This document shows positions 16,201 to 62,860 of a stretch of 64,000 nt of DNA, one piece after another; the stretch's first letter is position 1, and every line of letters starts with the position of its first letter. The DNA comes from Ulota crispa (taxonomy: Eukaryota > Streptophyta > Bryopsida > Orthotrichales > Orthotrichaceae): positions 4,466,501-4,530,500 of the forward strand of contig OY987251.1 in NCBI GenBank assembly GCA_963920765.1, written 5' to 3'. The notes beneath the pieces were generated by a model, which had not been told where the DNA came from, did not search any database, and worked only from the letters and a program-made list of their open reading frames with translations. Both the position numbers and the translations under genes were made by a program.

Positions 16201-19200
16201 CTATTCATTTTGCTTGTATCATTCGTGTTGCTCCAAAATGCTGGCAATCCCTAGCAAGTACAATTTTCCACCTACAATTCCACATGAGCATGCCATGCTC
16301 ATCAAAGTTCATCAATTGGCTTTGTACCGCTCACATGAACTTAGAAACACCTTAACTCCTACAAGCTTCTTGAAGAATGAATTATTGATAGATTTGGTAG
16401 GATATAGATCCTTGAATTGGGGTAGATTGGTGGTTATCCCCTAAATCCTTGAGTGTTCCCTTGGGGGACAAATGGGATTTTGGGCAGGTACCTACAACCT
16501 CAATTTTTGTCTTGATTTTTTGAAACTTTTTTTGAAGATAGGAAAACACATTTGCATTTGGGGAATATAAATTTTCTTCCAATCAATGCCCAAAAGCAAA
16601 AGTTATGCCTAGATAAGCAAAAATTTATGCAAATTAGGCAACAATTTTTTTTATAAAAACTTGAATTTTTCTTATTTTGTTGTTTTTCTCATAGGTTATA
16701 GTTTTGTCTATATCTAAAGCTTTGATCCATTCCATTTGGACTAGTTATGAGAAAGTTATGGACAATCTTGTTTTTTGGGCAGTTCAAGCATCTTCTTGAA
16801 AAAATAACTTATAAACTTCATTTTTGAATGCAAGTTTAACAATTTTTCAAAAAAATTGTTGGAGACAATGAAGTTTGCTTGCTAGAACAATCTCACCATT
16901 GGGATTATTGAGTTTCAATTTCATTGCAAGGTTATTAATAGTTTAAGTTTTTGTTCAATCTCATACCTTCTTCTACCTAATGTTTTTTTTAAGAATGAAA
17001 ATTAAGTATTTTTTGTTTTGATTTTTTTTCTAAAGATTCTCAACTCAATTTCCCACCATACAAAAAATAAACCTCAAAACTCTGTGGTACAAAAATTTTA
17101 AGTTAAAAAAGTTCAAAGTCAAATAGTCTAATCATGCAAGGTGCAAAAAAGACTGTTTTTTACACTTTAAATGCAAATATCTTGCAATTTATGCGGTCAA
17201 AGTTTTTGAATTTTTATTTCCAAATTCTTATACAAGTCTAATACAAGATCCTACGGTTAGATATGCAAAATGACCAATTTTCAAAGTATTTTACTTTTTG
17301 CAATAGAAATGGCAATTTTGAGTGTCTTTTGACAAAATAAAGGCCCCAGGGATTTAGGGGTTATAGCTCAATTTTTACACCTTTTTGTTCCCCTTTCTTA
17401 GCTTACAAAACACATAGTTAGATTTTAAATTTGATGAGGAACTAACTATATAAGAAGGATGTAAGTTAAGAGTGGACCTTTTGGGTAATAAGTTATATAA
17501 TAAGGGTACTTGCAAGCTAATTCCCACAATATACTAATGACATTCCCTTGCTCCTCTCTAGATCTAAATTATATAATATTTGTGAGCAAGTTATACTGAC
17601 CCTCTTGCTTGACAAACAGGTTTCCATTAAATTGGTTTTTTTTTTGTTGCATCGGCAAGGATTGTACAGAAACTTAATCTTACACCATTCTCTTCTACAA
17701 GAATTTTTTTAATGCAAATTAACAATGTGTTGAGCTTATCCTTAAACATCCCATGGGCATAATAGATGCATTGCCATTAAATTAGCATTTGCTATCAATA
17801 AGAAGTTTTAATTTGGGATCTCAAATATCTCACTAGAACCGCATTGCTACATTTGATTTTTTTCTTGATAATAAATATAGTAAAAATGTGGATCTATTCC
17901 AAATATAAGGAAAGTACCGCATATTATATTGGTTGCAAAGGGCCTTTCAGACGTTTAAGGGTTATTGACAAAGGTTACTTCTATGAAATATTTAAAGCTA
18001 TAAATGTCTTATAACGTATCTGTAAACTTTGATAGATGAGGAAAGGACGGAGCTTATCAAGATTCTCTGCAAATGTATAGACGACAGCAGTAACCTGATT
18101 CGGAGAGCTGTGTTGCCTGCAGTGGAGATGTTCTTCACCACCATGCCTCCCACTTTTAGCGACTCTGAGGTAAGTGTATTTCAACTTTAACTGATTTTAT
18201 GCAATATTTGATGAAACTGGAGTATCCCTTAACCGTCTAATAATGGGCTGGTCACCGTAGCAAAAAGTGGGTTGGAAATAGTTCCAAGTTGCAAGAGAAA
18301 ATAATAGTGTGGCAAAGTGCCACACAATTTAATTCTATTATCAAGAGTTGTGTAAGGTAGGAGCACCCATAAGCAGCGCTGTCCCCATAACTGTCAGTTC
18401 TAAAATCTTGGAAAATTTTTGGAAGTAAATAGATGTAATGACAAGGATGTACAACATATGAACATGAAATCTTAAAAGTGGTTATGGGTACAATGGCAGT
18501 TTGCTCTTTAAAAATTCACAACTTATTCTAACAGTATCCAAATAATACATTCAAAATTGCAAACTCAATATTTTACTATTCCTAATAGGATCTTATAATT
18601 TGCTAGCTATTTATTAATACTCATCATGTTCAAAACCCTTAGATTGACGCTTACATTACAAAGGAAATTAGGCTTCCAGAAGGCCCCCAAATTGTGAGCA
18701 ACAAATTTTTCAAAAAAAAGAAATTTTTCAAAAAAAAAAAAAAACAATAAAAAGATTTTTTATTTATTGATAGATTGCTGTGCGACTGGCAGGCCGTCTG
18801 CCAGCTGCACAGCAGTCTATTAATAAATCAAAAATCTTTTTTTGTTTTTTTTTGAAAAATTTCTTTTTTTCGAAAAATTTATTGCTCACAATTTGGGGGC
18901 CTTCTGGAGGCCTCATTTCCTTTGTAATGTGAGTGCTCCTACCCTAAGTCAGCCTTGCATGATGCTCTCATGAAAATTGCAAGGAAGCATGGGACTTAAC
19001 AGTATCTTTGTGAATCTTCTCACAAGTTGGAGTACTTAAAAATATGAGTGCATTCAATGAGGCTAGTTTTTGCCTTCCATGAAATGGCTTTCTTACTTCT
19101 AGTGGATTATGTTTTTGTCATCCATAGGACAAAAAACATCCTTGTCAATGTTTAAGGATTCAGAATTGGAGTCCATTACAAGAACCATTGCACGGACCCA

Positions 19201-28628: not shown

Positions 28629-31600
28629 AAGGGGAAATTCATGGATACCCTTGAAGTTTGCAATAACATCATAGATACCCTTGCTTTTTCAGAAATTTCA
28701 CAAATACCCCTGGATCTGCAGTGCTTCTTTTCGCCTTCTGATTTTCTTCCTCTTTCCTAGAATTCCTGCCAATCTGTGGACCTTGGTATTTTTTTAGCAT
28801 CCCCCTCAAGCTCCAGCATGGAGCACACTCATAAACTCATGCTGGTCTTAATGAATCTGACACCTCGTTTGTGGGGCCAGGGTGAAAGAGCTCCTTTTTC
28901 TTACATGCCAAAAAATGTAAGCATTTCAAGAAATTAGCATTACAAGATTGAATTTGAGAAATTTGAAATAGCATTATGTAGTAATAATTTGGTGGCTAGC
29001 TTCGCAAAACACAAAGACAAGCTAACACCAAATTTGTTCAAGGAAAGTCTAAAATAGCTAAAGTTATAGGATCTAAGGTTAAATGTAAAGTAAATAATGT
29101 TCAATTGAGGAAGTATAATGAAAAGGTTATGACAAAGGTATCTTTATTTAAGAATTGGGTAAAAGGACTTGTCTTTACTCTCTCTCATGGGGGTTCTAGT
29201 TACTAATCATCAATCTATTAAACATATATGCAATCCCATGCAAATGTTGTATCACTATCAAAGAATTGAAAAAATGGGATTAAGGGAATTAACATACATC
29301 AAACAACACAGGCAATAGTCACAGGCAATAGTCATTGGCAATAGTCACGATCAGTAGCCAAATGGTCCGAGGCTATAGTTTGGTTATTGTGTGTTAACAA
29401 CATCACAATATGGCAATAGTTTAGTAGTCAGTGTTTGTCAAAAACCATGAGTCAATCTTTTGTAATCAATAACCATTCTAGCCAATTCAATTAATTTCCA
29501 TCCTTAACCATTTTTGCTATCAGCACGTCTATGGCCTAGTTCAAAAAAGATTTAGAAAAGAATTAATCAGTTGCATGGTTAATTGATTCATAGTATTCCC
29601 ATAACCATAAACAACATTATTCTATTGTTCAATCGATAGATATTTTATTTAGTCAATAGCCCGTTCAGTTTCTATCATAGAAACTATCATGTATCACTAT
29701 ATAAATAAACAACATCATCTGTCAATTGCCATCTGCTTTCACTTGCAGCATATTTCAATAACAATGAGTTTGTACTTAGCTATAATCTTTGCTTCACGCT
29801 TTGGCTATAGCCTTTCTCCTCGCTCCAATGTTCAATCATAAAAGGGCACACGCAGAGAATCACTCTCGTATCATGGCCATCATCTCCTTACTCAAGCATT
29901 GCATCAATCAATTCATAGCCTTTCTCTCAGATTTAACCATCCAGGCTATAACCTCACAACTTCAATTACAATCAACACTGTTTCTCTCAGAAGTATCTCA
30001 CTTCTTTAATTATTTTATGTATTGAGTTTTACAATTAGAATTAGGTCAATTGCCTTCAACATTACTCTCATCTGAAAATACTCGCATAATTTTTGTTTAT
30101 CAACCGGCAATAGTCTGGATACTTTTCTCAAGTATAATCTCCTTTACTAATTGCCTTGGCTATAATCAATTAAAAATTGCATCTTGTTACAACTAGGAAT
30201 ACACTTTCAAATATGATCTGACTATAGCCTTTTGCTCTCAATCACTAAGACATTGTCAATGGCAATAGTCTTAATTTTGTAACATAAACACTCATTACAG
30301 ATTATAGCTTTCTTTCTTAAAGATTAAATTTCTATAACAACTTCGGCTATATTTTGCTAACTTCTACTCAATCATTGAATATGTAATTGGCTATTATCCC
30401 AAGCTCTCAATCACTGAGTTGCTCTCACTGTTCATAGCCTTTCTTGCTAATAAAATATCTACTTTGGTCTATTGCCTTGCCTCTCTTAGGCTGCAACTGA
30501 GTAATTACACTCAAGCCATAAATTGGTGTACTCACTCACTATGTCTCAATCGGCCATTGCCTTCAATACAGTACAATTTTATCACAACAATCATCAATGA
30601 AATCAATCAGATAAATTAAATACCTCAGCCTTATTCTCTCTACAAGCTCATCTACAAGCCGAAATAACAAATGATCATACATAGAATATTGCCTTCCTCA
30701 ATCTTACTGATTGGGCGCATACATATTATAAAACATAAAATGAAAATACAACAAAGAAAACAAAGAAACTGCAAGGGAAGTCAGATCTAATTTCTACTCC
30801 AAAGAAACATCAAGAAGTCCATAGCCTATATACTAAAAGAAAAGATCCCTTCACATTTGTAACTAACTTTGGTTATGCAACTTCTAACCGTATATAGCCT
30901 ACTATCCAATTGCTTCAAAAACCACATACACATTACACTACACTTTTGAACCCGAATGCATTTTAGAACCATTCACACTCAAAATTCAAATGCAAACATA
31001 AAATTCAAAAAGTAGTGTTCACACATTTGAATTCAAAGACCATGCTTTGTTGAGAAAATCTTTGAAAGCAAATAAAATGATCAACTCCAAAAAATGGGCT
31101 CATTCTTACGTTTACCCTTGTTCATAAAATACCAGATATATTTTGGGGAAAATATCAAAAATGCCCTTCAATTCTTTCAAAATATCAAATATACCCCTAT
31201 ATTATTTGAAATATAAAAAGGGAATGACTAGGGAGACACCCTTATAGCCCAACCTCTTAAAGTTGAGATTGTTATTATACTGAAGTATGAAATAAAATCA
31301 AAACAATATTTTAGTGCACATCTGCATCTGCAAGCGTTGCAAACATAAGACAAATATGTCTCAATTGTGACATGTTTGAGAGCTAAAATATTTGTTTCCT
31401 TCATTTTTAAGTTTAGCTCTCAAACATGTCACAATTGGGACATATTTGTCCTATGTTTGCAACGCTTGCAGATGCAGATGTGCACTAAAATATTGTTTTG
31501 ATTTTATTTCATACTTCAGCATAATAACAATCTCAACTTTAAGAGGTTGGGCTATAAGGGTGTCTCCCTAGTCATTCCCTTTTTATATTTCAAATAATAG

Positions 31601-32117
31601 GGGTATATTTGATATTTTGAAAGAATTGAAGGGCATTTTTGATATTTTCCCCAAAATATATCTGGTATTTTATGAACAAAGGTAAACGTAAGAATGAACC
31701 CATTTTTTGGAGTTGATCATTTTATTTGCTTTCAAAGATTTTCTCAACAAAGCATGGTTTTTGAATTCAAATGCTATTTCAAATTTCTCAAATTCAATCT
31801 TGTAATGCTAATTTCTTGAAATGCTTACATTTTTTGGCATGTAAGAAAAAGGAGCTCTTTCACCCTAGCCCCACAAATGAGGTGTCAAATTCATTAAGAC
31901 CAACATGAGTTTATGAGTGTGCTCCATGCTGGAGCTTGAAGGAGATGCTAAACAAATACCAAGGTCCACAGATTGGCAGGAATTCTAGGAAAGAGAAAGA
32001 AAATTAGAAGGCAAAAAGAAGCTCTGCAGTTCTAGGGGTATTTGTGAAATTTCTGAAAAAGCAGGGGTATCTGTGATATTATTGCAAGCTTCAGGGGTAT
32101 CCATGAAATTTTCCCTT
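28629..32117. mobile_element. 3.5-kb non-autonomous element with ~347-bp terminal inverted repeats
   Basis: The left arm 28629-28975 and right arm 31770-32117 are reverse complements with roughly 85-90% identity by eye. They begin AAGGGGAAATTCATGG and end CATGAAATTTTCCCTT, and the flanks are T runs. Each arm has three stacked sub-repeats built on GGGGTATNNNTGANATT of about 30 bases. Long arms of this size recall Mutator-like elements, but no 9-bp duplication is visible. The interior (28976-31025) has no transposase; it is AT-rich with many 'ctatagcc' and 'ggcaatagtc' words. The 746-bp palindrome abuts the right arm. Confidence 0.75.
31026..31771. repeat. 746-bp near-perfect palindrome (fold-back)
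   Basis: The left arm 31026-31387 and right arm 31412-31771 are about 360 bases each and nearly identical as reverse complements, with only a 24-base loop between. The outer ends read TTTGAATTCAAA on both sides. Inside the arms lies GACTAGGGAGACACCC, which also occurs singly at 51583-51598. A transcript of this locus would give one long, almost fully paired hairpin suited to small-RNA processing. The close match of the arms suggests a recent origin or ongoing conversion. Confidence 0.85.
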
Positions 32118-33988: not shown

Positions 33989-34242
33989 TAAGAACAAATA
34001 ATAAAATACAAACAAATTTGTTCATTGTTTGAAAGACACAATTAGAAAATGCTCAACATCCCAATTAGGATATAAAAAATAAAAATGCCCTAAACCTAGT
34101 TGTACTTGTTTTACCTCAAGGATGAAGGTAAATGTGCTCACAAAGCCGAATGGGTGACCTGGGAGCTATTACAAACTATTACAACACAGCCAACAATGGA
34201 TTTGTAACACAAAGAGGCTCTAAGTACACCTTCTCACATGTT

Positions 34243-34667
34243 ATTAGACCAAATATACAGCATAGGATTACTCATATATTAGGTCCAAGGTTCAAGAACA
34301 ACCCATCCTCACCAAACTCGGATATCAACCTAAAGACCCGGTGCAGCTGGTCAAACAGATTAAATTTTTAGAAAATAATTTTCCAAGGAGAGCGTGGTAG
34401 GGATGCCATGTCGGATGATGAAGCTCTGGGGTAACGGCAAGAGAGGGAGCGAGGCGCCTGCGTTTCATGGGAAGGGGAAGTAAAATAGTTAGTTGGTGCC
34501 CAGCTCTCCAACCAACTCAAGCCAGCCTCACCAATTAGAGCAGCCTTCATATTAGTGTGCCACCCTTCAGAACGGGCCAATCGGAGGGTCGCTGAGGAAG
34601 CTTTGAACCCCCTGATAGGCCGACGCTAACATTTTTCTTCGCCACGTGGAGGGTGGGGTCTGAGCAG
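34243..34667 (+). repeat. Left direct repeat bounding the BRAT1 block (5' flank of the gene)
   Basis: This segment is repeated downstream at 43538-44267. The core 34383-34598 (216 bases) is identical to 43985-44200 in every base I compared, while sequence on both sides of the core differs at perhaps 15-20% of positions. The shared part right of the core includes a G-box (CACGTG at 34643-34648). It lies 320-750 bases upstream of the BRAT1 start codon and is the likely promoter. Confidence 0.85.
34643..34648 (+). promoter_or_regulatory. G-box-like CACGTG in the BRAT1 5' flank
   Basis: CACGTG within GCCACGTGG, a core recognised by plant bZIP and bHLH factors, sits about 340 bases upstream of the ATG. 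The same motif is retained in the downstream repeat copy (44246-44251). A function is inferred only from motif and position. Confidence 0.4.
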
Positions 34668-34990
34668 GGGAACGCAGGAGGCGAACCGAGAGCGGCCTGG
34701 TGAAGGGAACGAGGATTGCGAGCGGGGGAGGGAGTCGCTCGTCCCGGACTGCGAGTCGTCGGGCGTCGTCGTCGTCGCGGCAGCGTGCGTCGTTGCCTCG
34801 CGCTCGGGCTTACGTTTCGCAACACTCGCAGTCTCGTACGTGGCCGTGCTCGTGAGCGCCGGGGCTGCGGGCGATGCGTAGCAACAGACGTGGATGCGGC
34901 GATAGTGTGGCTGCGGAGGCGTAGCGCGGCGAGCTCACGGTAACGAGAGCCTGGGCGGAGGGGCGAGGGTTTACGCGGGATTGAGGTTCT

Positions 34991-37900
34991 ATGAAGGCAG
35001 CGCGTGGCCATGGGCCGGCAGCGTGGCTCTCCGTCAGGCACCGTCGCTTCCTGCGCAATGCTGCCAAGCCCAAGCGCAAGAATCAGCAGCGCTCGTCGGA
35101 CAGTGTGCGGATAGCCAATGCCCTGCACCGGAGTGCGGGCATCGGTCGGAACGGCAAGAGAAACAACAACAGTAGAAGAATTGGCGGCGACAACAATCGA
35201 AGCGAGAATCCGGTCCCTCGATCCGCTTCCTCTCCGCCGGTGAGGTGCCGCGCATCGGTGTGAACGTTGAAATTAATCGATTTTCTCAAATGTGGCGATG
35301 GACTCTGGATTCGAATAAGTTTTCTGTTCTGTGGAGGTTACCGGATTGCTTGCGCTTTTTCCTCAGTGTCTGGCGACTCTGTGAGTGCTGTTTGCTCTGG
35401 AACAGACAGCTCGCTCAATTCTGCGAATTTAGGGCTGCGCGGGGAATTGGCGAGGGCGCGGGGTTTCTGACGTTGCGAGTGTGTTGTGGCTGGGATTGAT
35501 CGCGTGGCAGGCGTCGGAGACCGAAGCCGATCCCTCAATGCCATCTGAGAGCGTTCCCAATCAGGTGCGCAGCTCTCCAGAAAATTCTCGATTGTGACGT
35601 CGGAGTGCGGTGGTCCGTCTGACCTCGCGGTGTCGTGGTAGCGCTCTCTGAGAGGCGGTCTGACTCCTCCAGTTCGGTGTGCCGTGACGAGCACCGGGAT
35701 CATCGTAGCCTCGATGAGCGTGACGCCGGTCGCGATGTGTTTGGGAGTAGGGTGGAGCGCTGGCTTTTGATATGGTTCCTGTGAGGTTTAGAATCCCGGT
35801 TTGGTTTCCGTGTCTGCGCCCCACTCCGGTGGACGCCTCAGGTGTGGTTGCGGAATTTGCTGCGTGTTCGTGATTGCTGTCCACCTGGTAGTCGGTGGCC
35901 CGTGGCCGAGCGATGTGGCTGTTTAGGGCATGGAGTTCCTGTTGGCTGTCGTCTGGAGCTCGGTGAGGGCTTATCCGGGGCGATTGCGTAGATGTCCAGG
36001 GCAGTGAGTGGAGCTCCTCGTGGGCATGCGCCGTGGAGGGCGCTGGGATGCGGCGTATGGTTCGGCCTGAGTGAGTGGATCTGAATGTGACTGTGTGTGG
36101 CAGCGTGGTGCCGACGGTGGCAACCTGCGACGGTCGACGAGGAAGAGGCGCGTGCTGGTTCATGTGGATTACGAATCGGACAACAGCGAGCATGAGGTCT
36201 ACCGAAGTCAGACAACCCGGGTACGTATTGCAACTAGCAAGAGGTTGAGCATGGGGTGTCGGTGTCGGAGGTCTCCATGGATCCGAGGACATCCCGTGTA
36301 GCGTCCTGGACATGGATTTCATGCACGTGGCAGCTGAACGAGCTCGATGACTTGAAACAAACTTGAATCAAACGTGAATCGAACTTTGCTTGTTGATTCG
36401 GATGGTTGGCAGGTGTCGAAGCACAGGTATGCTTCGGCCCACGCTGCCAAGGCGGAGCCGATCCCTGAGGAAGAGGAGAGCCCGGAGCCCGCGGAGGCGA
36501 AGAACGCGGATGCTGCCGCGGCACCGAGGAGAGAGGGGTTGAGGCCGCGGCAGGGGATACGGCCTCCAAGGCTGGAGCTTTCGTCTCAGGATTACGAAGA
36601 TGACGATCAGAACTCGTCGGACAGGGAGATGGGGATGAAAGGTAATACCGATCCAGCGGTCGCAGAGCACGTCAGGCCCTGGCCTTTGAGGGATATTGTT
36701 GGGAATGCTCGTGTCCTGAAATGGTCCTGAAATGGTATTGGAGGTCGCAGCATTGACGTTCCTTGTGATGGCGGGTTTTGCGGACAATTTGGAAAGATGC
36801 CACGGTGTCACTCTTCGAGCGTGGGTCGATATGAGAGAAGAGAATGGACAGGTGGCACGCTGAAAATGAGCCCGTTTTGAATGCGTTCCGAAGGCCAGAT
36901 CCATGCGTAGATGCGGGTTGCTGGTAGCTTAGGGAAATGAGCGCTGGAATGCGTTCACTCGGGCATTTCCCGGAGCCGGTTGTGTAGAACGGGGCAATGA
37001 CGTCACGTGCGAATGTGGTGATTGGAACATTCCGTCTACCGCGTAGACATGTGGTGTGTGAGGAGGTCGGGGGTTGGCTTTGCGATTGGGACGGGGGGTT
37101 TGGGTTTGTGACGTGATGGCCGAGGCCCGAGTCGGTACCGTCTGCTCGACGCGGCGCGTTGTGTTTCGTGGGACTCTGATTGCCGGTTTTTGAGCTGATA
37201 CTTGTATGGGTCAGGTGTTGTGGTGGAAGCAACACGACGGCGTCCAACATGGAGTGTCGTGTCTTTGTACCTGCAGGTGACGCAGAAGAGGAGGGAGAGG
37301 AAGAGGAAGAAGAAGAGGAGGAGGAGGAGGAAGAAGAGGAAGATGAGGAAGGCGAGGAGCTAGAGGGCCGTCATCGGTATGCTCTGCGAAACCGCACGGG
37401 CGTTCAGCGGTTTTCTCCTCGAAAGGAAGAGAGGACGACGGCGAGAGCACGATCTCCTCGGAAGATGTTCCACGGAGGTACGATCTGGAACTCCGGGCAA
37501 CCGCATGGACGGGGCGGGAGTGGCATTCGTTGTGGTCGTGGCAGTGGTAGTCGTGTGGTCGCCGTTGGGCTGAGCGTATGGAAGGTGGGCTGGGTCGCCA
37601 CGAGGGCCAATGATGTCGGCATGTGAGCGGCGAGGAGTGGATGTGGGGTGATGCTCGGTGAGGCGGTCCTGATGGTGGGTGGTGATGTGTCAGGGAGCAG
37701 CACGAAGCGCGGGCGGGAAGGTCGTCGGTCGGGAAACCGGTCGCACAAAAGGCATCGTTCGACTCGAGCCGACGACTCGGACGACTCGTTGCTGGTGGAC
37801 GAGCAGGACCAAGGCGCGGCTCCGTGGTTGCGGATGGGTCGGGGGTCCGGTCATCCGTGGTTACCTCCGGGGCTGGAGGCACCCGGCATGGGCAATCTGG

Positions 37901-40900
37901 GTGCGGCTGCGAGCGGTTGGGGCCAGCCGGGGAGCCATTGGGCGTCGAGCACGCCAGGTATGGAGCTGATCCTATGCGTGGCAGTGTGTGATGACGTTCG
38001 GGGGTGTGCTCTTGGATTGCGTAGTGGTGCTTGCCGGCAGGAACTGTCTTGGTCCCGGAGAGTGCTGGGACGCGTGAGGCGCGGGCAGGTTCGGGGCGGA
38101 GCCACCGCGTCGCGTTTCCTGGAGTTGGGATGGTCGGGCTTTGCGAGAGTCTGGTTTCTTTGGCTTGCCGCATTTTGGTTTGGCTCACGTGGGTTGGGAT
38201 GTCTGACGAACGCGATTGGTGTTTGTCGCAACGAACGTGCGAGAAGGCGGAGCGCAAACGGCCGGTCCAAGTTCGAAAGGAGGGGCGGACATTCAGCCGG
38301 TGCAGGTGGATGACACGGTGGGATTCGATCAGATAGGGGGGTTGGCTCACTACATCGATCAGCTGAAGGAGATGGTGTTCTTCCCGTTGCTGTACCCGGA
38401 TTTCTTCGCCAAGTACCACATCACCCCACCCCGAGGGGTCCTCCTTTCGGGTCCGCCGGGGACGGGGAAGACGCTGATTGCGCGGGCCATGGCGAGCGCG
38501 GCGTCGAGGGCAGGACAGAAGGTGAACTTCTACATGCGGAAAGGGGCGGACGTGCTTTCCAAGTGAGTTTGCCGGACGTGGTCTCGTGTTCGGGGGCGTC
38601 GGTTAACGGTCCGGGGGGGACGCGCGGTACGAGCTGAGTGGTTGGGCAGTGCGGGTGTTGGCGATTGACGGTCGTGTGCGCGTGGGTGCGTTGTGGTGTG
38701 GCAGATGGGTGGGAGAGGCGGAGAGGCAGCTGCGGATGCTGTTCGAGGAAGCGCAGCGATGCCAGCCGTCGATAATATTCTTCGACGAGATAGACGGGTT
38801 GGCTCCGGTGCGTTCCAGCAAGCAGGAGCAGATTCACAATTCGATCGTGTCGACGCTGCTGGCGCTGATGGATGGGCTGGATTCCCGCGGCCAGGTGGTG
38901 GTGATCGGGGCGACGAACAGGATAGACGCCATAGACGGGGCGCTGCGGCGGCCGGGGAGGTTCGACAGGGAGCTGATATTGAACCACCCGACGTTCGAGG
39001 CGCGAGTGGAGATCCTGGACATCCATACGAGGAAATGGCAGAAGCCTCCGTCGGAGGAGTTGCGGAGGGAGCTGGCGGCTTCGTGCGTGGGGTACTGCGG
39101 GGCGGATCTGAAGGCTCTGTGTACGGAGGCGGCGATCCGAGCGTTCCGGAGAAAGTATCCGCAAGTTTACAGGTACGAGTCCGAGGGCAAGCTTTGTTTC
39201 GGGGGCAGTCTCAGGTGCTATCCGTGCGTGGCACCGGATGTGTGTTCGCACGTGTTTCCAGTTCGCGGCGTCTGGTTGGCGTACCTGCGATCCGGCAGCA
39301 TTGTGAGATGTGTTCGTGTCGTGATGAAATCCCGAGGGGAGGGCGGGGTGTGTGAGGGTGCTTGTGGTGGAAGTTCGGAGGGGGTCGGGATTGGCGGAGG
39401 GCAGTACGTGCTGAAGCATGCTGACCGGGGTGCATTGTCCAGGAGCGACGAGCATTTTGTGATCGATGTGGAGTCGGTGGAGGTGGAGAGACGGCACTTT
39501 CTGGAGGCGGTATCTGCCATCACGCCGGCGTCGCATCGCGGGGCAGTAACGTATGCGAGGCCGTTCTCTCCCGTGATCGCTCCGTGTCTGGAGGGGCACC
39601 TGCAAGCGATCATGAAGAAGCTGTCGGGCATCTTTCCGGTGATGAACGGGGATGCGTCGTGCGGTGGCCAGTCGGACAGCGAGGAGGAGGAGAGTCCGGA
39701 GCAGCTGGCCCGGCTGTTTGGGCTGGGATGCAGCGCTCCTTTGGTTTACAGACCGAAGTTCCTGGTGTACGGGTGGGAAGGAGCGGGCTTGGTACGTTCC
39801 TGGACAAGGGCGTGGTCTGGTATGCGTCCATAGAGGATCCGGTTGGGATGCCCGTGGACTTGTCGGGAAGTTTTGTGGCGACGGTTGTGGAATGTGCTGC
39901 TGCCGAGGCCGAGGTCGGGGCAAGGCAGCGTGGATTCGCAGCAGTCGTGTGTGGCATTGGGTGATGTGGCATTGGAATGGTGGAGGGTGTGATGGTTGTG
40001 GTGGCGTGGGAGTCCGTGGTGGCTCACGTTTTGTCAGGGGTTGGGGAACGAAGAGGACGGTCCATGTGGTGAGCCGGCACGCTGAACGGGTTGGGTGGGT
40101 CGGTTGGTGCAGGATCACATGGGACCGGCGGTGTTGCACGAGTTGGAGCGGTTCCCGGTGCATTCGCTGGGGCTGCCGTCGCTTCTGTCGGACCCGAGCG
40201 CGAAGAGTCCCGAAGAAGCATTGGTGCACATCTTTGGAGAGGCTCGGAGGAACACGCCGTCGATTCTTTACTTGCCTCAGCTTCATCTGTGGTGGGATAC
40301 GGTACGTGTGGTGCGTGGGAGCTGGGACGGTGCGAGGGAAGTGTGGGTGATGGTGGCTGTTAGGTTTGGCTCATGATGCGTGCGAGGTTTGGGTGCTGTG
40401 AGTACTTGTGTGTGTGGTAGCGTCGTGACGTTCTGATTCGGGGATTTCGAGGCCTTGTATTGATCCGTTCGGAGTGAATGTGGCTGTGGATTGCCTCGTC
40501 GCGTTGCATTTTATGGCGGTCTGTTATCCACTGGGATCGCTCTTGAGAGGCCCGAGAGAAATTTTGGCGGGGTACCCTGCAGCGAAGTTGGTTTTTACCT
40601 TCTTCGGATTGCACAGAGTGGATCGGTTTGTTTGCAGGGATTGCGGTGCGTGGGTTGTTTGGTTTGACGTTTTTCCTTTGAGTTTGGCAGGCTGACGATC
40701 AGCTGCGGGCTGTGCTGAAGATGCTGTTGGGTGACCTGCCCTCCGACCTTCCAGTTCTGTTTCTTGGAACTGCGTGCGTGAAGGACCTTGGCGAGGACAT
40801 ACTTGCGTTATTCGGTCACAACTGGTGAGCAGTGTCGGAAGGTGGCTTTGCTAGGAATGTTGGGCCCAGCAGTTTGGCGGCCGGTTGTGGGACTGTGAGT

Positions 40901-43524
40901 GACACGGATAGCGTGGATCGGGTGAGGAAGGTGTATGAGCGCTCGGCGATTGTGGTTGGTTGTGCTGTGGTTGAGCTTGGCTCGATTCCGGTGGGCGGTG
41001 CGTCTGACTAGGGAAGCGGCACGCGAGTGCTCGTGTTGGGGTTGACGCAGCTACGAGGTGAAGATACCCAGCGCAGACGTGAGGTCGAGATTCGTGTCGC
41101 AGCTGGTGGATGCTGCTGTTTCCGTTCCGAGGCGGCGAGCTGTGGGTAGGAACAAGCAGAAGGAGGTCCTTCCGGAGCTGCCGAAGGCACCGAAGGTGGT
41201 GAAGGGTCCGAGCGAGGCGGAGGTGCGAGAGCGGGCGGAATTGGAGGAGAACCACCTGAGGCGACTGCGGATGTGCTTCCGCGACATCTGCAACAGGTGG
41301 AGGCCACATCCGTTGGGTTTGTGTTATGAGCGCTTAGGGTGCCGGGGACCGTCAGTTGTGCATGGAGGAACTTCCCACCCGTGGGGACTGCCTCTTGTTG
41401 TCATGTAGTTGGTTGAGTGTTGCCCTTGTATTATGCATCGAAGTGGTTGGCGGCTGGTTGGTGCGCGTTTGGGGAATGGGGTTCTCAGCGTTTGCGGTCG
41501 GGGCCGGGTTGAACTGTGAACGCAGGCTTCTGTGCGAGAGGCGGTTCAGCATATTCCACTATCCAGTCCTGGACGACGAGGCTCCGGACTATCGGAACGT
41601 GGTGCACAATCCGATGGACGTGGCGACGTTGCTGCAACGCGTGGATAGCGGGCTGTACATGACTAAGAAGTCTTTCCTGGCGGATGTGGACTTGATCCCA
41701 GCCAATGCTCAGGTAGGTGATTGCGGGTGCCACCGGAGTGAGACTACGGCTTGAACTTGTGCGAGATTCAGTTTCCCGGTAACAACGGATATGCCGACAC
41801 TTTTCGACACGCGAAGGATGGTATGGGCGGGTGAGTGGGGGTTTTATGGGTGTCCTCTATAAGGCCTGGGAGGTTTGACGGTGAGCGGTGACGTTTTGCA
41901 GGAGTACAACGGGGACGATTACCAAGGAGGTCGAATCGTGAGCAAAGCATGTGCATTGCGCGACGCGGTAAGGATCGCTCCCCCCTCCCCCGTCATTGGT
42001 TTGTGGGATGTGCTAGAAAACCGTGTGGCGGGGTGGACGCCGTTGCGAGCCATTGGGGTACTGTTGTGGCGATCGGAACGAACAGGGTGTGTTTGTGGCA
42101 CTTGAACTAGACAGGAGTGATAGCTTTGGAGAGGTTTATGGGGTTGTGGAGTTGGATTTGCGGAGTCTGGGTGGGAGTTTGGGGCGAGGTCCAGCCGTTA
42201 TCTTCCTGGGGTCTAGGTGTGATGAATGTGGGGTGTCGTGGTGACGGGTGTGAGTCACACGGTGAGACCGGCGGCGCAGTGTTCTGTTCGTGGCGCCTTG
42301 GGAGACGCGATGTAGGGTGGATGTGGCTTGATGGACTCGTTCGATGATGGGCCTGGGGTGGTGGGAGGCGACGGGTGGTTTGGCGGCATTGTGAAATGGT
42401 GTCGTCGCCCAGTGTGGGTACGGTTGCACTGGCGGCGATGGTAGAGCTGACGGTGGGAACGTTTGTGACGAGCAGGTGCTGGGCATGGCATCCACGATAG
42501 ACCCGGCATTGGTGAAAGCGTGTGACGAGATAGCTGCGCACGGAGGGCCTCCGCGGCTGGCGGGAGTTCCGAGCGGCGTGTTGGTTCCGGCGGCTGCTCC
42601 TCCGGTGGTTCGAGCGAGCGCGAGGCTGCGAGGATTCCAACCCGAAGTGGACGGTTCAAAGGCGGCGGACGGAATCGCTCGGCGTTCACGGAGGAGCAGC
42701 GAGGGGCTCCTTGCCGGTACGACGGGTGTGTGGGTAATATTGAGTCGGTTTGTGTAGGAGGGTGGTTTTGCAAGTGGTGGACGTGGTCGACTTGCTTTTG
42801 AATTGCACCGTCCCGGTGGGAGCAGGGTGTTTTTGACGTGTTCTCGTCCAGGCTGAAGCGTTTGTGACATGCAGTTGTTGGAGTCGAAGGGCGCCGTAGT
42901 TTGGAAGGTGATTTTCAGGCAATAGCCAACTGTTGGTCGCTGTTCGTGTGGGGAGCACTGATTCCTTGTTTTGTGTTCCCGGCGTTGACGACAGGTGAAG
43001 CAGCAAACGGGAACTGCTCGGACGGGGCCGTGGAAGGAGATGCATCCGAGGAGGTGCAAACAGAAGGTGCGGAGATGGATATTGATACACCGGGTCCAGA
43101 ACCATGCGACGACGTACGACCCGAGACCATCGACGAGCAGCACGGAAACGGGAGCGTGGCAGCAGACGCGAGGATCAGCCACGGACGGGAAGCCGCCGAA
43201 GATCAAGGGAAGCCGTGCGAGGAACTGGAAGACAATGGCGAAGAATCGATCGAGAAGGACGCAGAAGTTTTGAAGTCGCTGAAGGCAAGAATCGATGCGG
43301 TGAAACAGAAGCTGAGCCAGCAGACACGGGGACTCGGAGTGTTCCGACTGGAGATGCTCCACGCCAACGTATGCAGGCTGCTCCAGCACGGTCACGGCGA
43401 TTCATGCCCAACAAGATTAGCTTTGCTGGAGAAGTTCGTGGCAGTGGAATCGAACCTGACATGCGAATCCAAATCTTTGTCATCTGCACATTTGGGCGGC
43501 ATTAAGTTCAATGGTCGAGAGTAG
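34991..43524 (+). CDS. BRAT1: BRAT1/ATAD2-type AAA ATPase with bromodomain, complete 15-exon gene
   Basis: A nuclear chromatin protein; the Arabidopsis counterpart (At1g05910) binds acetylated histones and prevents silencing at methylated loci. Exons: 34991-35239, 36104-36220, 36413-36641, 37277-37477, 37694-37957, 38247-38562, 38705-39172, 39443-39791, 40113-40301, 40691-40824, 41051-41296, 41526-41712, 41902-41967, 42476-42716, 42995-43524. All are GT-AG and the phases close to 1261 residues. In order: basic N-terminus with NLRRSTRKRR (about residue 91), a poly-Glu tract (about 202-225), the AAA domain with Walker A GPPGTGKT (422-429), Walker B IIFFDEID (482-489), sensor GATNR (527-531) and RRPGRFDRE (540-548), a degenerate second AAA domain, and a bromodomain (about 905-1005) with the acetyl-lysine-binding Asn at 986. 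An in-frame TGA just upstream supports the start. Exons and introns are GC-rich. Confidence 0.93.
37280..37366 (+). repeat. GAG/GAA run coding the BRAT1 poly-Glu tract
   Basis: A purine-only triplet run in exon 4 of the BRAT1-like gene encodes about 25 nearly consecutive Glu residues. Acidic tracts at this place are common in ATAD2/Yta7 proteins. The run is prone to length change by slippage; the reverse strand gives a Pro/Leu-rich chance frame. Confidence 0.85.
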
Positions 43525-43537
43525 GTATGTCTACCTT

Positions 43538-44313
43538 AGACCAAACATATAGCACATGATTACTTGGTAAATTAGGCCCAAAGTTCAACAAGAACCCATC
43601 CTCGGGGTTTTCTTTTTTCAGATTACAAGCGTAGAGCGACTCGAACCCAACAATCCAAGCAAATAAGGAAAAAAGGGACAAAATTGGATAGAATCATCGA
43701 AATGTGGACGCTCACCTACAAATTGTACTAATATTAGTGAACTTCATCCAAAATTTGACAAATTTGGTGTTGGCTTGGGAAGGGATTTGGCTATTTCATC
43801 CATTTTTTCACCAGATTTTTTCTGTGTCGCGGTAGCCACTAACCATTTGAGGTAAGATTTACGTAAATTTTTGCCAGGAAAAGAAAACCCTGTCCATCCT
43901 TACCAAACTCGGATATTAACCCAAGCCCCAGTGCAGCTGGTCAAACAGGTTATGTTTTTCCCTTTTTAATTTAGAAAATGATATCCAAGGAGAGCGTGGT
44001 AGGGATGCCATGTCGGATGATGAAGCTCTGGGGTAACGGCAAGAGAGGGAGCGAGGCGCCTGCGTTTCATGGGAAGGGGAAGTAAAATAGTTAGTTGGTG
44101 CCCAGCTCTCCAACCAACTCAAGCCAGCCTCACCAATTAGAGCAGCCTTCATATTAGTGTGCCACCCTTCAGAACGGGCCAATCGGAGGGTCGCTGAGGA
44201 GGCTTTGAACGTCCGGATAGGTGAATGGAAACATTTTTCTTCCGCCACGTGGAGGGTGGGGTCTAGAGCAGGGCGTGGATGCGGCGATGGTGTTGCTGCG
44301 GAGGCGTAGCGCG
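43538..44313 (+). repeat. Right direct repeat bounding the BRAT1 block (truncated promoter copy)
   Basis: This repeats 34243-34667, starting about 14 bases after the BRAT1 stop codon. The core 43985-44200 is identical to 34383-34598. After the shared G-box it jumps at about 44268 to sequence matching 34887-34932 ('cgtggatgcggcgat'), so about 220 bases of the first copy are missing. It then ends in AT-rich DNA. It looks like the promoter and 5' UTR stub of a lost second BRAT1 copy. A hAT-like MITE interrupts it at 43603-43892. Confidence 0.85.
43603..43892. mobile_element. hAT-like MITE inserted in the right direct repeat
   Basis: The ends read CGGGGTTTTCTTTT and AAAAGAAAACCCTG, close to the CAGGG terminus of hAT elements. 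The 8-bp flanks are CCCATCCT (43595-43602) and TCCATCCT (43893-43900). The left direct repeat carries the uninterrupted site ('aacccatcctcaccaaac' near 34302), which is an empty-site proof of insertion. It is 290 bp and has no coding capacity. Confidence 0.8.
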
Positions 44314-46822
44314 GGCGTTTCAAGATTGGATTTGTGATGCTAAAACTAGACTTCAAAAAATATTATCCAAAAACACAAACTATTAAAAATAGCAACTTCG
44401 TCAAATTTAATAGCAACTTAGTCAAATTTTATAAAAATTTAAAGAATTATGGCGACCCAAATCTGGTCGCTTGGGCATTTAGAGGTTACTCCTTAAAAGT
44501 CGAAGTAGACGGTTTCCGTCCTTTTAGTGGGGAAAAAATAGTTTTTAGGTTGACAAAAAAGCTTTTTGCATCCATTTTTTTCTTCAAAAGTGGTCATGGA
44601 GAAGTGCTCCATTTTGAAATGTCAATAATAGATTTGTAAATTACCCCCACATTTTTTAAACTCTAATTTGTGAGAAGATTGACAATTATGGTTGAAGGTT
44701 CCATGTTGCCCTAGTTATAATTTTTGTGAGGGCAGCTTGCAATATTGATTTTTGCAACTTTCAAAAATAATAAATAATATGTGGGCAGCATTGTAGAGAT
44801 CATTGTCCACTGTTCTTGGGTAGGCACAGTGACCACCCCGGTGTTTAGGGATTAAAGCAAAAATATCATCCAATTTTACTCTTTTTTGTTTCCCCAGAAG
44901 GTTTGAAACCTCCTATTACAAATAGTAGTAAAGCCTTGTTTCATCAAAGGCAACTAGCACAGTTGACAAACAATTAAATTGCACTTTGGTGGAAAAGTTT
45001 CCACATGATTTATATCACACACTAAGGGAGTTAGTGTTTGGGAAGAAATTTTAGGGCCACTTCACACCATGGCCAAAGGTCAAGAGGGTCAAGAGGTAGT
45101 CAATTTTCACCAATAGAATGCAAGAAACTATAACTTTGGCCTTTGAACTCTTCACATTAAAAATCAAAGTTCAAAATCTATATCTCTAAACTACATATAC
45201 AAAATCGTTTTTTCAACGAAAACGCCTCTGAAAGAAAAAAATTTGGGCTAGGCAAAAGTGGAGACCCAATTTAAGGTCACAAAGACATCAATTTCTTTCA
45301 TGAAATAATCAAAAATTGACAAAATCTTAACAATTAGAACGGAAATTCTAATTTATGCCATGGATCTAAATTTTTGAACTTGGTTTTTGGAGGTTGTGCC
45401 AAGAGTTTGAACTTTAGCTTTTAAAGGCATCACATAAAAGTCAACCAAAGGTTTCAAACACAACATTTTGTTGCGTACTTTCAACCCATTTCTTTGGTCT
45501 CCCAACAATGTTTGGCCACTCAGTCCCACTCCTCAACTTCACCTGCCACAGTATGAATGGAGTCCTTGGCTTTGTCAGCTAAAATTGGGCATTTCCAGTT
45601 TTCAAATGGTTTTTTACAAACATCACATGATATTCTCTATTTTTACAGCATAATCATACTGAAGTGTAACGTAACTAAGTTTTTGAAAAGCAAACCAGCT
45701 TTTTGTCCAGTGCTTATAAACTTCAACCAGATTGTGTGCAATTTCAACCGACTGGCAGTACACTAAATATCGGTTCTCCCTGGCCTCATACCGATAATGG
45801 CAGTCACAATGAATTTCACACACCACGGAGAAATGTAGCCTGGCAGCAAAGTGGGGGATAAAATGTTTCACTGCAGTAGATGGTGACGGTTTAAAGTTTG
45901 CAAGAAAATGGCAAGAAGAAGGCTCAGAGATGTGGACATTCTCTGTATAGAGCATGCACGGCACTAAGCTTTTGGTACCTCCCAACAGAGATCACTGAGA
46001 TGGAGATTGCACTAAAAAGGATTCTAGATTCCTTTTACAGCGCCGTTGAGAGAATCCTCAGAGAAAGTTATGAGATGAGGAAGAAGCGAATTTCCAAGCA
46101 AAAATCTAAGAAAAGAACACAAAAGAGAGAGAAGCGAACACCAAAATTGTAGAAAGCTGGCACAGATCTGAGATAGTCGGCTCGAAAACCGACCATCTAA
46201 GGGCTCATTCCCCCTTTTTTTTTAGGGTTTTCCGTGGATGGTTGGATTTTCAGTTCATTTCTGAAACAGAGAGAAATAGATGCGGAATGTAACATAAGTT
46301 GTTTCATACTTTTTGAAGCATTTTTGAATTACTTATGAATTTTTAAAATGCATATATCATAGGTCTCTATTTATGATCCTAGACCTTTCAAGGACCATTC
46401 ACTTGTAAGTTGTGAAGAGATTTGGGAAAGCAAGGAGAATGATTGGCTCTTGCAATTAAAAACACATATTCTTTCATGCATTCAATGAGTTGTAAGAGGC
46501 CAATGTAAGAACCACTACTGCACCATTTCACAACAAGCTACTGGATTGTTCGAAATGTGCAAACGGTTTATGAGTGTACTACATTAGTAGCAAATCTGGA
46601 TTTGCAGGCGCGGCGAGACGGAATGGAAGGTGCAGCGCGGATCGAGACTCGTAGGCACGAGCACCCTTTACAATTTTGGACCAATCAAGGTCTCCAAGTT
46701 CAAATTTGAACTCAAAATTCTCAAATTCAGCTCTTTTAATGATAGAAATCTAAAATTTACCCCTCGGGATGTGCATGTACAATAAACCCCGGTGTGCCCG
46801 TATCAATTCCCTTCTATATCCT
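44314..46822 (+). other. AT-rich intergenic stretch, nothing assigned
   Basis: No exon-like sequence, clear inverted-repeat ends or tandem arrays were found. Open frames at 44334-44639 and 45898-46152 (the latter Lys/Arg-rich) have no recognised domain and no supporting neighbours. A small GC-richer patch at 46600-46660 is unexplained. Confidence 0.45.
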
Positions 46823-57296: not shown

Positions 57297-58743
57297 TCCT
57301 ATATATATGGATTTGCTTTCTTCATAAAAGGTTTACAACATGGCCGTGCAAATACAAATGGAAGAATATGTGTAGTTGCATTGTAGAGGCAAGATCAAGA
57401 AAAATACATTTAAAAAAATACAAAATTTTGGATGTTAATTAAAACATTGTTGAGTTCAAAAGTTTTCAAAAGAGTCCTTGCAATTTCAAGAACATCTTCT
57501 AATATTTTTTGCAAACAACAAGATTTTTATGTTTGCATATAGTACGTTCCACATTTGACAATATCCCAAGAAATTTAATTTAGAAGAAAATCTAAGTATT
57601 TTGAATGGGAGCAAATTAATTCTCAAAATGGTTGTTTCTAGCCCAACTATAAAAAGTAAAAATTATTGTCCATTATGTAATGTTTTTTGAGCTAGAATAA
57701 TCAATTGTGTAAAATATTATATGATGAACTCTATTTTTTGCAACTACTATTGGTATTATAAGTGAGGCATTGACTTCCAAAAGTATAAACCACATTCAAT
57801 ATCTAAAAAGAAAAAAAATCCAAAAATTCTACAACAACAACTAGCATAAAATATTCTTCAAATCATAGAAGCCAAAGTCTCTTTTATAACTAGTAATTCA
57901 TCAATCAATCTAGTGCTAGATTAAGTGATTGAAAAATATTTCTGAAAAAATTTAACAATTAAACAAAATATTGAGCACTAAATTCAAGAATTATTGGTTT
58001 TCTTTTCCAATAATAACTTACATCAACATATGCACAACCTTTTTTTAAAGAGGTGAAATTAGCAACAATTCAACCCTCAACTATAATCTCACATATGGAT
58101 GCAGACTTACAAATGGGTTAATTAGACTAAATATTCATGACCCATATTTTATCCATCCTAAGCTTCATAAAACTAGGCCTCCAAGCCATACAAAACATAA
58201 GTAACATATGTCAAAACCCATAATTAAAGACATATGTTTTTTAAAGAGCTATAATGCGATAAAGGCCACAGAATATAATCTACGCATCTTGATTTTTGTT
58301 CAATGCCATCATGATTGGTTCTTATTTACTCTCTTCTTTTGGATAGCAAACATTCACTTGAAATACATTGTGTTAATTTCCATCATTAGTGTTGGAAGGT
58401 GAAAAGTGAGGTGCATCTCCTTGGGATATACCTAAGCTTAGATGAATACACCATTGTGATGCATGATGATGCACTTGCCTCCTAGAGGTAGAGATGCATA
58501 TAATTCAATCTGGTAGTGTTTAGATTCATGCAACAAAACAACTTTCCTGGATTGGTTGCTTTTCATCAAGCCAGTTGCTGCTTGTTGTCTCTCATCTAGT
58601 TCAAGAAACACAATGGTACTGTTGAGTAAGCTTGTTAGAATTTTAAGAACGTATGAATGATAGATATTCCTTATAATAGTCTAGTATTCTCTTGCTGCTA
58701 AAGTCTTGGGCTCTTGGCCATTGCTAGTGCTTTCTGTCCATGA
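57297..58743 (+). other. AT-rich intergenic stretch before the Copia element
   Basis: No gene or clear repeat boundary is visible. A short frame at 58208-58402 has no recognised domain. Confidence 0.5.
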
Positions 58744-58956
58744 TGTTACAAGAGAATACTCATCCATCCGCTTTTGTAACCTAAGTTCATCTAGCTACCA
58801 CTATTCATCCATGTACATCCATTTCTGTTGTTATATAACACGGCGTATCATATGAATAAACTCTCTTTGAGTATTCACTCTCAATCAACTGAGCATGTTT
58901 CCCTGACTTGTATGATCTGTATCTTTTCCATATTACTATATTTGTGTTACTTCACA
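58744..58956 (+). repeat. Left LTR of the Copia element
   Basis: It begins TGTTACAAGAGAATACTC, matching the start of the right LTR at 63906, and ends near TTCACA just before the primer-binding site. The exact end (58956 or 58958) is uncertain. A TATATAA-like box lies near 58832-58838. Confidence 0.85.
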
Positions 58957-58958
58957 CA

Positions 58959-58969
58959 TGGTATTAGAG
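58959..58969 (+). other. Primer-binding site of the Copia element
   Basis: TGGTATTAGAG directly follows the left LTR. Copia elements normally carry TGGTATCAGAG here, complementary to the 3' end of initiator-methionine tRNA; this copy has one C-to-T change. Confidence 0.8.
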
Positions 58970-59158
58970 TAAGGTTCCCATCCTCTTGCTCGTGTCTCTT
59001 GTTTTTGAAACTATCAAATTTTACTGCACACTTTACACTGTATCTTGGTCCAATCGCAATCACCTACTACCTTCTCTCTCATGTTGATCAAAAAAGATAC
59101 CTCAGTCTCGTGTCAATACGTCAGTCCCCTCAGTCCCTTGTCAATCATTGTAGCAACC

Positions 59159-59710
59159 ATGTCTCAAGAGATTCTTGTGCCCAATGAAGCCAAGCTCACA
59201 AGAACGTCCACCTTCCACCTCTGGAAATATATGGTGACAAGAATAGTAAAAAAAAAGAAATTGTGGTCTCTCTTGTCTGACCCCACACCTGGCTCCACCT
59301 CAAAGTCAAAGAAACACGTAGAAAGTGAAGAGTCAGATGGTAGTCAGGCAGAACATCTCCTGTATATTCTCAACATGTCTATTAAACCCTCACTCTTGGC
59401 TCAACTTACTGAGTATCAAGAACCTAGACCTCTGTGGGACTATCTGTGTAAGACATTTGAAGTTGACAATGACAACAAGAAGTTCAAACTGAAAAACAGA
59501 CTTGCGTTCATCACGTTCTCAAAAACTGTGGGGGTCGAGACTTACTTTGCTCAGTTTTGGCAAAATCTAGCGCAGCTGTCAACCATTGGAGTAAAGTTTG
59601 AAGACAACGATCTTGTACAAATTGTGATGAAAGCACTCTCGGACAGTTTCAATTACTTTCTGCAGAGCTTCACAAGTTTAGGGATCTTCCCTAACCTGCA
59701 TCAACTTTAG
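59159..59710 (+). pseudogene. Copia gag remnant
   Basis: An open segment of about 183 codons starts at the ATG at 59159 and shows the gag pattern of plant Copia elements, with Trp-rich early helices and a PLWDYLCKTFE stretch. A stop ends it at 59710. The frame then shifts; a CCHC zinc knuckle (CFYCGRLGHHKDMC) is still readable at 59915-59956 in another frame. Confidence 0.8.
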
Positions 59711-60149
59711 ACAAGACTCATGTTTGAAAAAAGTTGGCGGCAAACAAAAGCGGGTAAAAGTCCAATGGAAACAGAAGCTTTGTACTTCTAAAGAGGGCAG
59801 AACTATAGAAACCAGTAGAACCGCAACATTGGAGGCCACGCTAACTAGCAACAACCGATCAACGCTCAAGGTACTATCAACACCTATGGTGGCCCTCAAA
59901 ACTATCCAATGCGTTGCTTCTATTGTGGCCGCCTAGGCCACCACAAAGACATGTGCCCAGAGCGCCTGATAGACATCAGGAAGTTAGAGACTAAGAGACA
60001 TGAGAAATTAGGAATTAAGCCATTTTCGGCAAACATTGCCTAGAAAGAGTCCTAGCCTAACTCTACCAATCATGACACTGCTGTCGATGTAGATCAGCTT
60101 GATACTAAAACTTCGACATGTTTGAAGCTGCTATCTCTTCTCTTAGCAT

Positions 60150-61370
60150 CAGCGATCCAGATTCTAGGTGGTACCTAGATTCACGTACCACATAGTATGT
60201 GACTGGTGACAGAGAAAATTTCACCCAGATAGATCAATATCAGGAAATGTCAAAACAACTAGTGGACAAAACCACCCAATTTCAAGAAAAGGTTCAATGC
60301 ATTTCACACTCTCATCTGGTGAAATAAAACATGTGTTAGGTTGCCTCTATATTCTAGGTCTTAACAAAAATCTTCTTTCCATTGGCTCATTGGTTGATGA
60401 AGGCATTGTTGCATGCTTCAATAACAAGAAGTGTGTACTGATCAGTAGGAGCAACAAGAAGATTGTTGCCAAAGGTATACAAAGCCCTTAGAACGGACTG
60501 TACTAGCTGTTCGCATTAGATGAGGATATTTTGGCAAACTTGGCACAAGGTGACGTTAACAACGCTTGTCTCTAGCACTTTTGATTAGGGCACATCAATT
60601 ATGCCAGATTACATAAATTATCAAAGTTTGGTATGGCCACAAGTATTCCCAATATACAAACCTACCAAGAGATATGTGACCAATGTCAAGCCAGGAAACA
60701 GGCTAGGGAATCATTCCCATGGCACTCCTCATCAAGGTTGACCAAACCATTTGAGCTTCTTCATTGAGATCTCTGTGGTCCTCTCCCAATTCCCTCATTA
60801 GCAGGGACAGAATATTTTATGGTAATTGTAAATGATTACAGTAGGTATTTTGGATTAAATTCTTACACAAAAAGTTTGAAGCTTTTGAACATTTCAAGGC
60901 TTTTAAGGCTATGATCAAACTCAAGATGACTTGCCAAATTCATCAACTTTGAAGCGACCGAGGAGGAAAGTTCTTGTCTTTTGAGTTCTTGCAACTCTAC
61001 AGAGACACAGGCATACAATGTCAGCTCACAAACGCCTACACACTGGAGCAAAACGGGGTTGCCAAAAGGATAAATTGCAAATTATTTGAGATGGCAAGGA
61101 GCATACTACTACCTACAGCAACTCCACGTTTCCTATGGCCTGAGGCCATTAGTATAGCGAGGTTCTTGATAAATCGGTCACCCACAATTGCAAACCCCCA
61201 CGTATCCCCCTTCCAAAGATTATTCAATAAAACTCTTGATGTTTCATTCTTTAGAATCTTTGGATCAAAGGTACACGTGTGGAGTGAAAGAGGCCAACGA
61301 CACAAGTTAGAACCTAAATCTACACAAGGATCGTTTGCTTGTTATGATGAACACACGAAGGGTTTTTGAA
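60150..61370 (+). pseudogene. Copia protease and integrase remnants
   Basis: A protease-like WYLDS motif lies at about 60169-60183 with the following Gly of the active site replaced and a stop at 60193. A pre-integrase segment runs 60297-60491. The zinc-binding CDQCQA follows near 60673. Integrase core pieces run to 61369, including a TNAYTLEQNGVAKR stretch. Several stops interrupt it. Confidence 0.8.
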
Positions 61371-61929
61371 GTTGGCTGCCCACGGAAAAAAATGTAGTTG
61401 TATCCAGGAACGTTAGATTTGATGAGACAAGAATATTTAGTAATCCAACTAACTCATCACCTCTAACCACTCCCTCCACTCCTCCACTAACCCAACCATC
61501 ATTACCCACAATACAAGTAACGGATCCAACAAAAAACCAACCGCCTAGTCCACCCCACGATGACATGGATAGATTAGAGGACACACAACCGTAACCACTT
61601 GTAGAACTGACAAACTTTACACCAGTAACTTGTCCACCCTCCAATTGCTTGAGACAATTGTCATTCAAACTCAAAGACAATTACATTTATTTTGTAGAGC
61701 CAACCGTAATGGAAAACATCCTCCCTAGCACTACAGAACACATCCAGCTCTTTGTACCCATAGATATTAATTGTTTTTTTGGGGTACTTAATGAGCCATC
61801 AGAGCCACTCACCTTTAGAGAAGCTGATTCATATCCAAGATGGAGAGCAGCAATGAAAGCTGAACAAGACTCCCTGACAAAAAACAACACCTAGGAGTTA
61901 CACAACCTACCGGCCGGAATTAAACCTGT

Positions 61930-62560: not shown

Positions 62561-62860
62561 ATCCTCAAAGAATTTGCTATGGAAACATGCACACCTACAG
62601 CCGTCTCTATGACCAAAAGGTTATATCTAGGACTTAAAGAGGAAGCACCCAAAGTAGACGCCAAGCATTTTTAGAGACTTGTAGGTATGTTGATATACTT
62701 GGTTAATACAAAGCCGGAAATCCTCTACGCCGTTGGAGTATTAAGCCGCTTCATGCACGATCCACGATTACCACACCTAGAAGTGGCAAATCAAGTCCTA
62801 CTAAACATATGAAGGGCAATTGATTATGGGATTTACTACCAAATTGATCATGATCTATCC

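Follow-up and report, generated by a model that had tools for sequence, protein, structure and literature searches.

The perfectly identical core found at both ends of a BRAT1 gene in Ulota crispa is very probably the outcome of interlocus gene conversion between the promoter of that gene, BRAT1-A, and a leftover promoter copy on its far side (copy 2). The window analysed comprises 64,000 nucleotides (C10:4466501-4530500) within a 275-Mb genome, and the reading rests on one assembly. The name BRAT1 is the label given in the original prediction, retained here for the apparent combination of AAA and bromodomain matches. The features on which the argument depends are as follows.

34244..34929, plus strand: repeat copy 1, covering the upstream/promoter region of BRAT1-A (aligned by blastn to copy 2 and, from 34312 on, to copy 3)
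34382..34598, plus strand: putative conversion tract in copy 1, the 216/217-bp core (exact identity to copy 2)
34991..43524, plus strand: BRAT1-A gene body, approximate extent (AAA, AAA_lid_3 and bromodomain by Pfam; PDB relatives)
38631..42045, plus strand: exact A/B identity tract of 3,415 bp, a putative second and larger conversion tract (alignment, permutation)
43536..44314, plus strand: repeat copy 2, interpreted as what remains of the 5' end of a tandem BRAT1 copy since lost (blastn, three-way alignment)
43604..43893, no strand assigned: 290-bp high-copy insertion in copy 2 (imperfect inverted ends, imperfect target duplication of ~8 bp)
43984..44200, plus strand: putative conversion tract in copy 2, the 216/217-bp core (exact identity to copy 1)
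93846-103344 in window-extended coordinates, inverted relative to BRAT1-A and ~50 kb to its right: BRAT1-B, duplicate of 34312-43464

In BRAT1-A the proposed first ATG lies at 34991 and the last ORF ends at 43524; the exon 1 frame and its ATG are present in both BRAT1-A and BRAT1-B. With the longest AAA ORF of BRAT1-A as query, the seven top-ranking PDB sequences are three VCP-like ATPases, followed by ATAD2, C31G5.19 (two entries), which we take to be Abo1, and YTA7.

An identical core between diverged flanks

Copies 1 and 2 were predicted to agree in every base of 34383-34598 and 43985-44200, and the comparison bears this out, with 216 of 216 positions matching; the exact run extends to 217 bp (34382-34598 and 43984-44200). 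The flanks had rightly been described as homologous and diverged, but the proposed divergence of 15-20% proved too high, as 20 of 180 ungapped columns differ (11%, gap columns dropped), with indels in addition. By segment, d amounts to 0.130 in the left flank at 34312-34382 (69 columns), 0.129 in the right flank at 34599-34669 (70 columns) and 0.049 in the right flank at 34889-34929 (41 columns), and 34244-34310 is 82% identical to 43536-43603 over 68 bp. Were the core to vary at the flank rate, the chance of finding no difference across 216 sites would be 9e-12. Base-by-base alignment of both repeats, the check proposed at the outset, places a perfect core amid diverged flanks, and divergence along the repeats is not uniform.

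Relative to copy 1, a segment of 219 bp (34670-34888) is missing from copy 2, which also contains the 290-bp insertion. We take this insertion to be hAT-like, judging by its inverted ends and target duplication. This insert belongs to a high-copy family: among the 49 matches listed for an 811-bp query, 43 lie on the insert (within ~15 bp) and six on three BRAT1 promoter places. The search for the insert family scored 40 of 2047 candidates in its first pass.

The sharp bounds of the identical block might also suit an unrecognised mobile sequence that entered both sites by separate insertions, an origin that is exceedingly improbable in view of where the core occurs. Searched against the assembly, passing over very common words, it gave three candidates and three matches, two in the window and the third at C10:4569558-4569764 on the minus strand (88%). 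As the original prediction had suggested checking genome-wide, every match (3/3) can be placed, and each adjoins BRAT1-A or BRAT1-B and not an unrelated site. Homology crosses both core edges in all three copies, the core of copy 3 stands at the same place, and neither a terminal repeat nor a target duplication was found at the core edges in the three-way alignment. Rfam gave 0 matches at gathering scores over 34000-44800.

The second copy also appears unlikely to be an artefact of assembly or polishing, in which the core of one copy was overwritten or misplaced. At 216 bp the core exceeds a typical short read, and short-read polishing could in principle mix the copies; the core of copy 2 is nevertheless flanked by private features, with the insertion end 91 bp to its left and the deletion point 73 bp to its right, so that reads of ~400 bp separate the copies. 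Polishing would seldom homogenise sequences ~11% apart to 0/216, and the contig is 15.8 Mb long.

The minus-strand frame over the core is indeed open in both copies, as first noted, but it is uninformative there because identical DNA is read twice. An open minus frame was obtained in 1315 of 5000 shuffles of the core, two stops interrupt that frame in copy 3, and Pfam returned no match for the copy 2 minus frame at E 1. A minus-strand coding exon was rejected on the shuffles and on copy 3, where the frame is not kept open; in copies 1 and 2 it is open by chance.

Discordance between core and flanks across three copies

Copy 3 occupies the equivalent promoter position of a second BRAT1 gene, BRAT1-B, whose AAA (186 aa) and bromodomain (138 aa) stretches are open and identical to those of BRAT1-A. 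Homology between the two genes spans 34312-43464. Within the core, 16 of 207 sites (7.7%) and a 9-bp indel separate copy 1 from copy 3, against an A/B background over 34312-38171 of 282/3832 (7.4%), or 266/3625 (7.3%) with the core removed; in the right flank they differ at 1 of 70 sites. Copies 2 and 3 have in common a stretch of ~10 bp that is missing from copy 1. A distant AAA paralog lies at C1:3334544 (60% over 162 residues) in surroundings of ~45% GC, and the 20 kb examined around it held no bromodomain match (best E 2.6).

In the three-way alignment of copies 1, 2 and 3 (gap columns dropped), 16 informative core sites group copies 1 and 2, 0 group copies 1 and 3, and none is of any other kind. 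The flanks hold 5 sites grouping copies 1 and 2, 16 grouping copies 1 and 3, 3 grouping copies 2 and 3, and 1 three-state site. Comparison of core and flank grouping gives a Fisher p of 1.6e-6, a value biased by the choice of the core for its identity; for that reason, permutation of the longest run of identity between copies 1 and 2 is preferred, a test that allows for this choice, and the observed run was equalled in 1 of 100,000 permutations. Taken by itself, the left flank gives a weak signal (4 sites for copies 1 and 2, 6 for copies 1 and 3, 2 for copies 2 and 3, and 1 three-state), and the right side supplies most of the discordance signal, with a ratio of 1:9 (1+2 vs 1+3) adjoining the core. 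Since copies 1 and 3 are only 1/70 apart in the right flank, exchange between BRAT1-A and BRAT1-B may have shaped the comparison there. The discordance, with flanks that group copies 1 and 3 around a core that groups copies 1 and 2, is the pattern predicted by conversion.

The sequence exchange seen elsewhere between BRAT1-A and BRAT1-B, along with the nearly alike right flanks of copies 1 and 3, could be turned into a different history, in which copies 1 and 2 arose by a recent duplication and sequence from BRAT1-B afterwards replaced the flanks of copy 1, so that only the core kept its original state. Such a course is highly improbable. The segments 34244-34310 and 43536-43603 lie outside the A/B homology, which starts at 34312, and are only 82% alike, so that the repeat pair is old and this flank was not overwritten from BRAT1-B. 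Copy 2 is further set apart from copy 1 by the 290-bp insertion and the 219-bp deletion.

Strong constraint on a regulatory element was another proposed cause. CCAAT is a promoter motif, and the core, which sits 393-608 bp ahead of the ATG proposed for BRAT1-A and carries CCAAT at 34531 and 34577 in copy 1 and likewise twice in copy 2, can be read as a possible CCAAT-bearing promoter module held identical in both copies by selection. That selection produced the identity is very unlikely, because copy 3, which precedes BRAT1-B, whose AAA and bromodomain stretches match those of BRAT1-A exactly, departs from copy 1 in the core at about the A/B background and carries the 9-bp indel, more than the 1/70 of the right flank. 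Copy 2 is moreover truncated, and the nearest ORFs of at least 90 aa to its right (44310-44639, plus strand; 45623-45991, minus strand) have no Pfam match at E 0.1. Among the causes originally offered, recent gene conversion is upheld, whereas strong constraint and a mobile sequence find no support.

Proposed history and the BRAT1-A/B mosaic

Interlocus (ectopic) gene conversion between paralogs, as scored by GENECONV-type tests, likewise leaves a perfect tract, diverged homologous flanks and a discordant third paralog. At the present locus, an island of identity (0/216 differences) lies inside homologous, diverged flanks (20/180), tract and flanks group discordantly with respect to the third paralog (16:0 vs 5:16), and the tract differs from the unconverted paralog at the background rate (7.7% vs 7.3%). 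Conversion was scored by permutation tests devised for this analysis, in place of GENECONV.

The history may have begun with tandem duplication of a BRAT1 unit of ~9.3 kb (about 34244-43535), which would have placed a second promoter at 43536, and the second tandem gene would later have been lost, leaving only a 5' part equivalent to the first ~690 bp, the present copy 2. Homology in copy 2 starts at 43536 with the sequence of 34244, 71 bases past the end of the A/B homology (43464), as would be expected after tandem duplication and loss of the second gene; it ends at 44314, equivalent to 34929 in copy 1. The second step is seen directly in the sequence, where a further BRAT1 copy, BRAT1-B, lies inverted ~50 kb to the right. 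Third, once ~11% divergence had built up in the flanks, a stretch of 217 bp or more would have been copied between copies 1 and 2, most simply during break repair templated on the direct repeat ~9.6 kb away. The donor was probably copy 1, the live promoter, and the recipient copy 2, the stump. The same process would have copied 3.4 kb between BRAT1-A and BRAT1-B.

The direction from copy 1 to copy 2 is favoured under a clock-like assumption and on 139 flank sites. Copies 2 and 3 differ at 21 of 139 sites in the flanks, and with copy 2 as donor a similar divergence would be expected between the core and copy 3; the copy 1 core differs from copy 3 by less than this (P=0.001) and fits the A/B background, and the natural-log likelihood ratio for copy 1 as donor is 5.2.

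Conversion appears to recur at the BRAT1 locus, as indicated by an exact tract of 3,415 bases in a unit otherwise ~93% alike. Outside 38172-42722, BRAT1-A and BRAT1-B are 92.6% identical. When the 359 differences were permuted over 9,118 columns, the 3,415-bp run was reached in 0 of 10,000 permutations, the longest permuted run being 391, and within 34312-38171 the longest A/B run (217) was unreached in 5,000 permutations. The 3,415-bp tract takes in the AAA and bromodomain exons together with the intervening stretches read as introns. Purifying selection alone was rejected for this tract, as it would be incompatible with the identity of the non-coding stretches. Along the locus, old stretches are interspersed with recently homogenised ones. 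BRAT1-B also has ~330 bp extra at window-extended 99756-100094, opposite 37540-37549 of BRAT1-A.

In exon 1, comparison of BRAT1-A and BRAT1-B over 81 codons gave a pS of 0.097 and a pN of 0.105 (6 and 19 changes), with no sign of purifying selection in these codons. GC content is 59.7% in both BRAT1-A (34600-43464) and BRAT1-B (93846-103058); the BRAT1-A island has sharp edges against surroundings mostly of 30-40% GC, and BRAT1-B is alike. Twenty one-kb samples at round positions on C1-C10 averaged 38.5% GC, and as one reached 62% and another 53%, GC islands of this kind are not unique in the genome. On a broader scheme, to which we give a low probability, the BRAT1 pair and its spare promoter would form a concerted-evolution system in which conversion keeps the AAA-bromodomain half and parts of the promoter uniform while the N-terminal exon drifts; GC-biased conversion would have built the 9-kb island, which has 60% GC where the genome has ~38% (20 samples), and copy 2 might retain promoter activity.

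Related sequences and significance

Several other features were observed in the window. An apparent copia-type LTR element occupies 58743-64000, with Retrotran_gag_2 and RVT_2 matches; its 96-bp direct repeats, 91% alike, stand at 58743 and 63905, and the window stops within the latter. A GATGGG-type tandem array at 15758-16204 contains long proline/histidine-rich minus-strand frames, nested near-perfect inverted repeats with arms of 194-197 nt (94-96%) lie at 31024-31773, and an additional inverted arm pair is found at 28635-28975 and 31770-32110 (94%). One gene is presumably DNAAF5-like, judging by a sub-threshold Pfam match (E 0.079), and if so would point to motile sperm.

A search with the BRAT1 bromodomain exon picked up another 16 places (38-56% identity), of which 15 contain internal stops. 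Nine were compared by tblastx, and all match pieces of 41094-41943 of BRAT1-A with order and spacing kept, some pieces being missing in some copies; by blastn, all nine match BRAT1-A at 67-81% identity, and their GC content is 36-38%. A 1.1-kb probe from one copy gave 17 genome matches, itself included, the last few partial. Two copies, C9:18893200-18902300 and C7:183000-192100, share 9 kb at ~93%, and the C9 copy has two SET-domain matches in neighbouring ORFs on the opposite strand, one above and one below the Pfam cut-off. Compared with 164 kb around BRAT1-A/B (words of 7), the 9-kb repeat gave no match beyond the two bromodomain exons. The dispersed family resembles a large element that has captured fragments of chromatin genes, among them a decayed, colinear piece of BRAT1 whose intron spacing is kept. 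According to PMC4899616, Arabidopsis BRAT1 counters silencing of methylated regions, and this anti-silencing role makes a repeat that carries a BRAT1 piece worth separate attention. The AAA and bromodomain matches here fall in one gene region, as they do in Arabidopsis BRAT1, human ATAD2 and yeast YTA7; unlike these, the gene here is duplicated and has ~60% GC.

Most simply, the process at work would be well-known gene conversion and not a new element. In the passages of PMC3966223 on tract length, paralog conversion tracts of C. elegans have a mean of 117 bp and a range of 12-2,958, and yeast tracts are quoted at >12,000 bp; beside these figures, 216 bp is ordinary, and 3,415 bp lies above the C. 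elegans range and below the yeast value. In contrast to the usual conversion between paralogs, one partner here is a promoter remnant and not a gene. This partner, together with a perfect tract of 3.4 kb shared by two inverted genes, is what is specific to the locus. Sex-chromosome palindromes are inverted gene pairs homogenised by conversion, and BRAT1-A and BRAT1-B are likewise inverted copies with a long perfect stretch; unlike the palindromes, they are separated by a spacer of ~50 kb, and the unit is homogenised only in part (92.6% outside 38172-42722). Among the titles and abstract openings listed for the literature searches, none concerned conversion at BRAT1, although absence is not proven thereby.

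Through the test with a third copy, a puzzling perfect island can be accounted for as conversion and not as a hidden element. The locus offers a clean setting for measuring the length and direction of conversion tracts in a plant genome. It also shows that dating duplicates by identity alone misleads, as BRAT1-A and BRAT1-B appear 0% or ~10% diverged depending on the stretch chosen.
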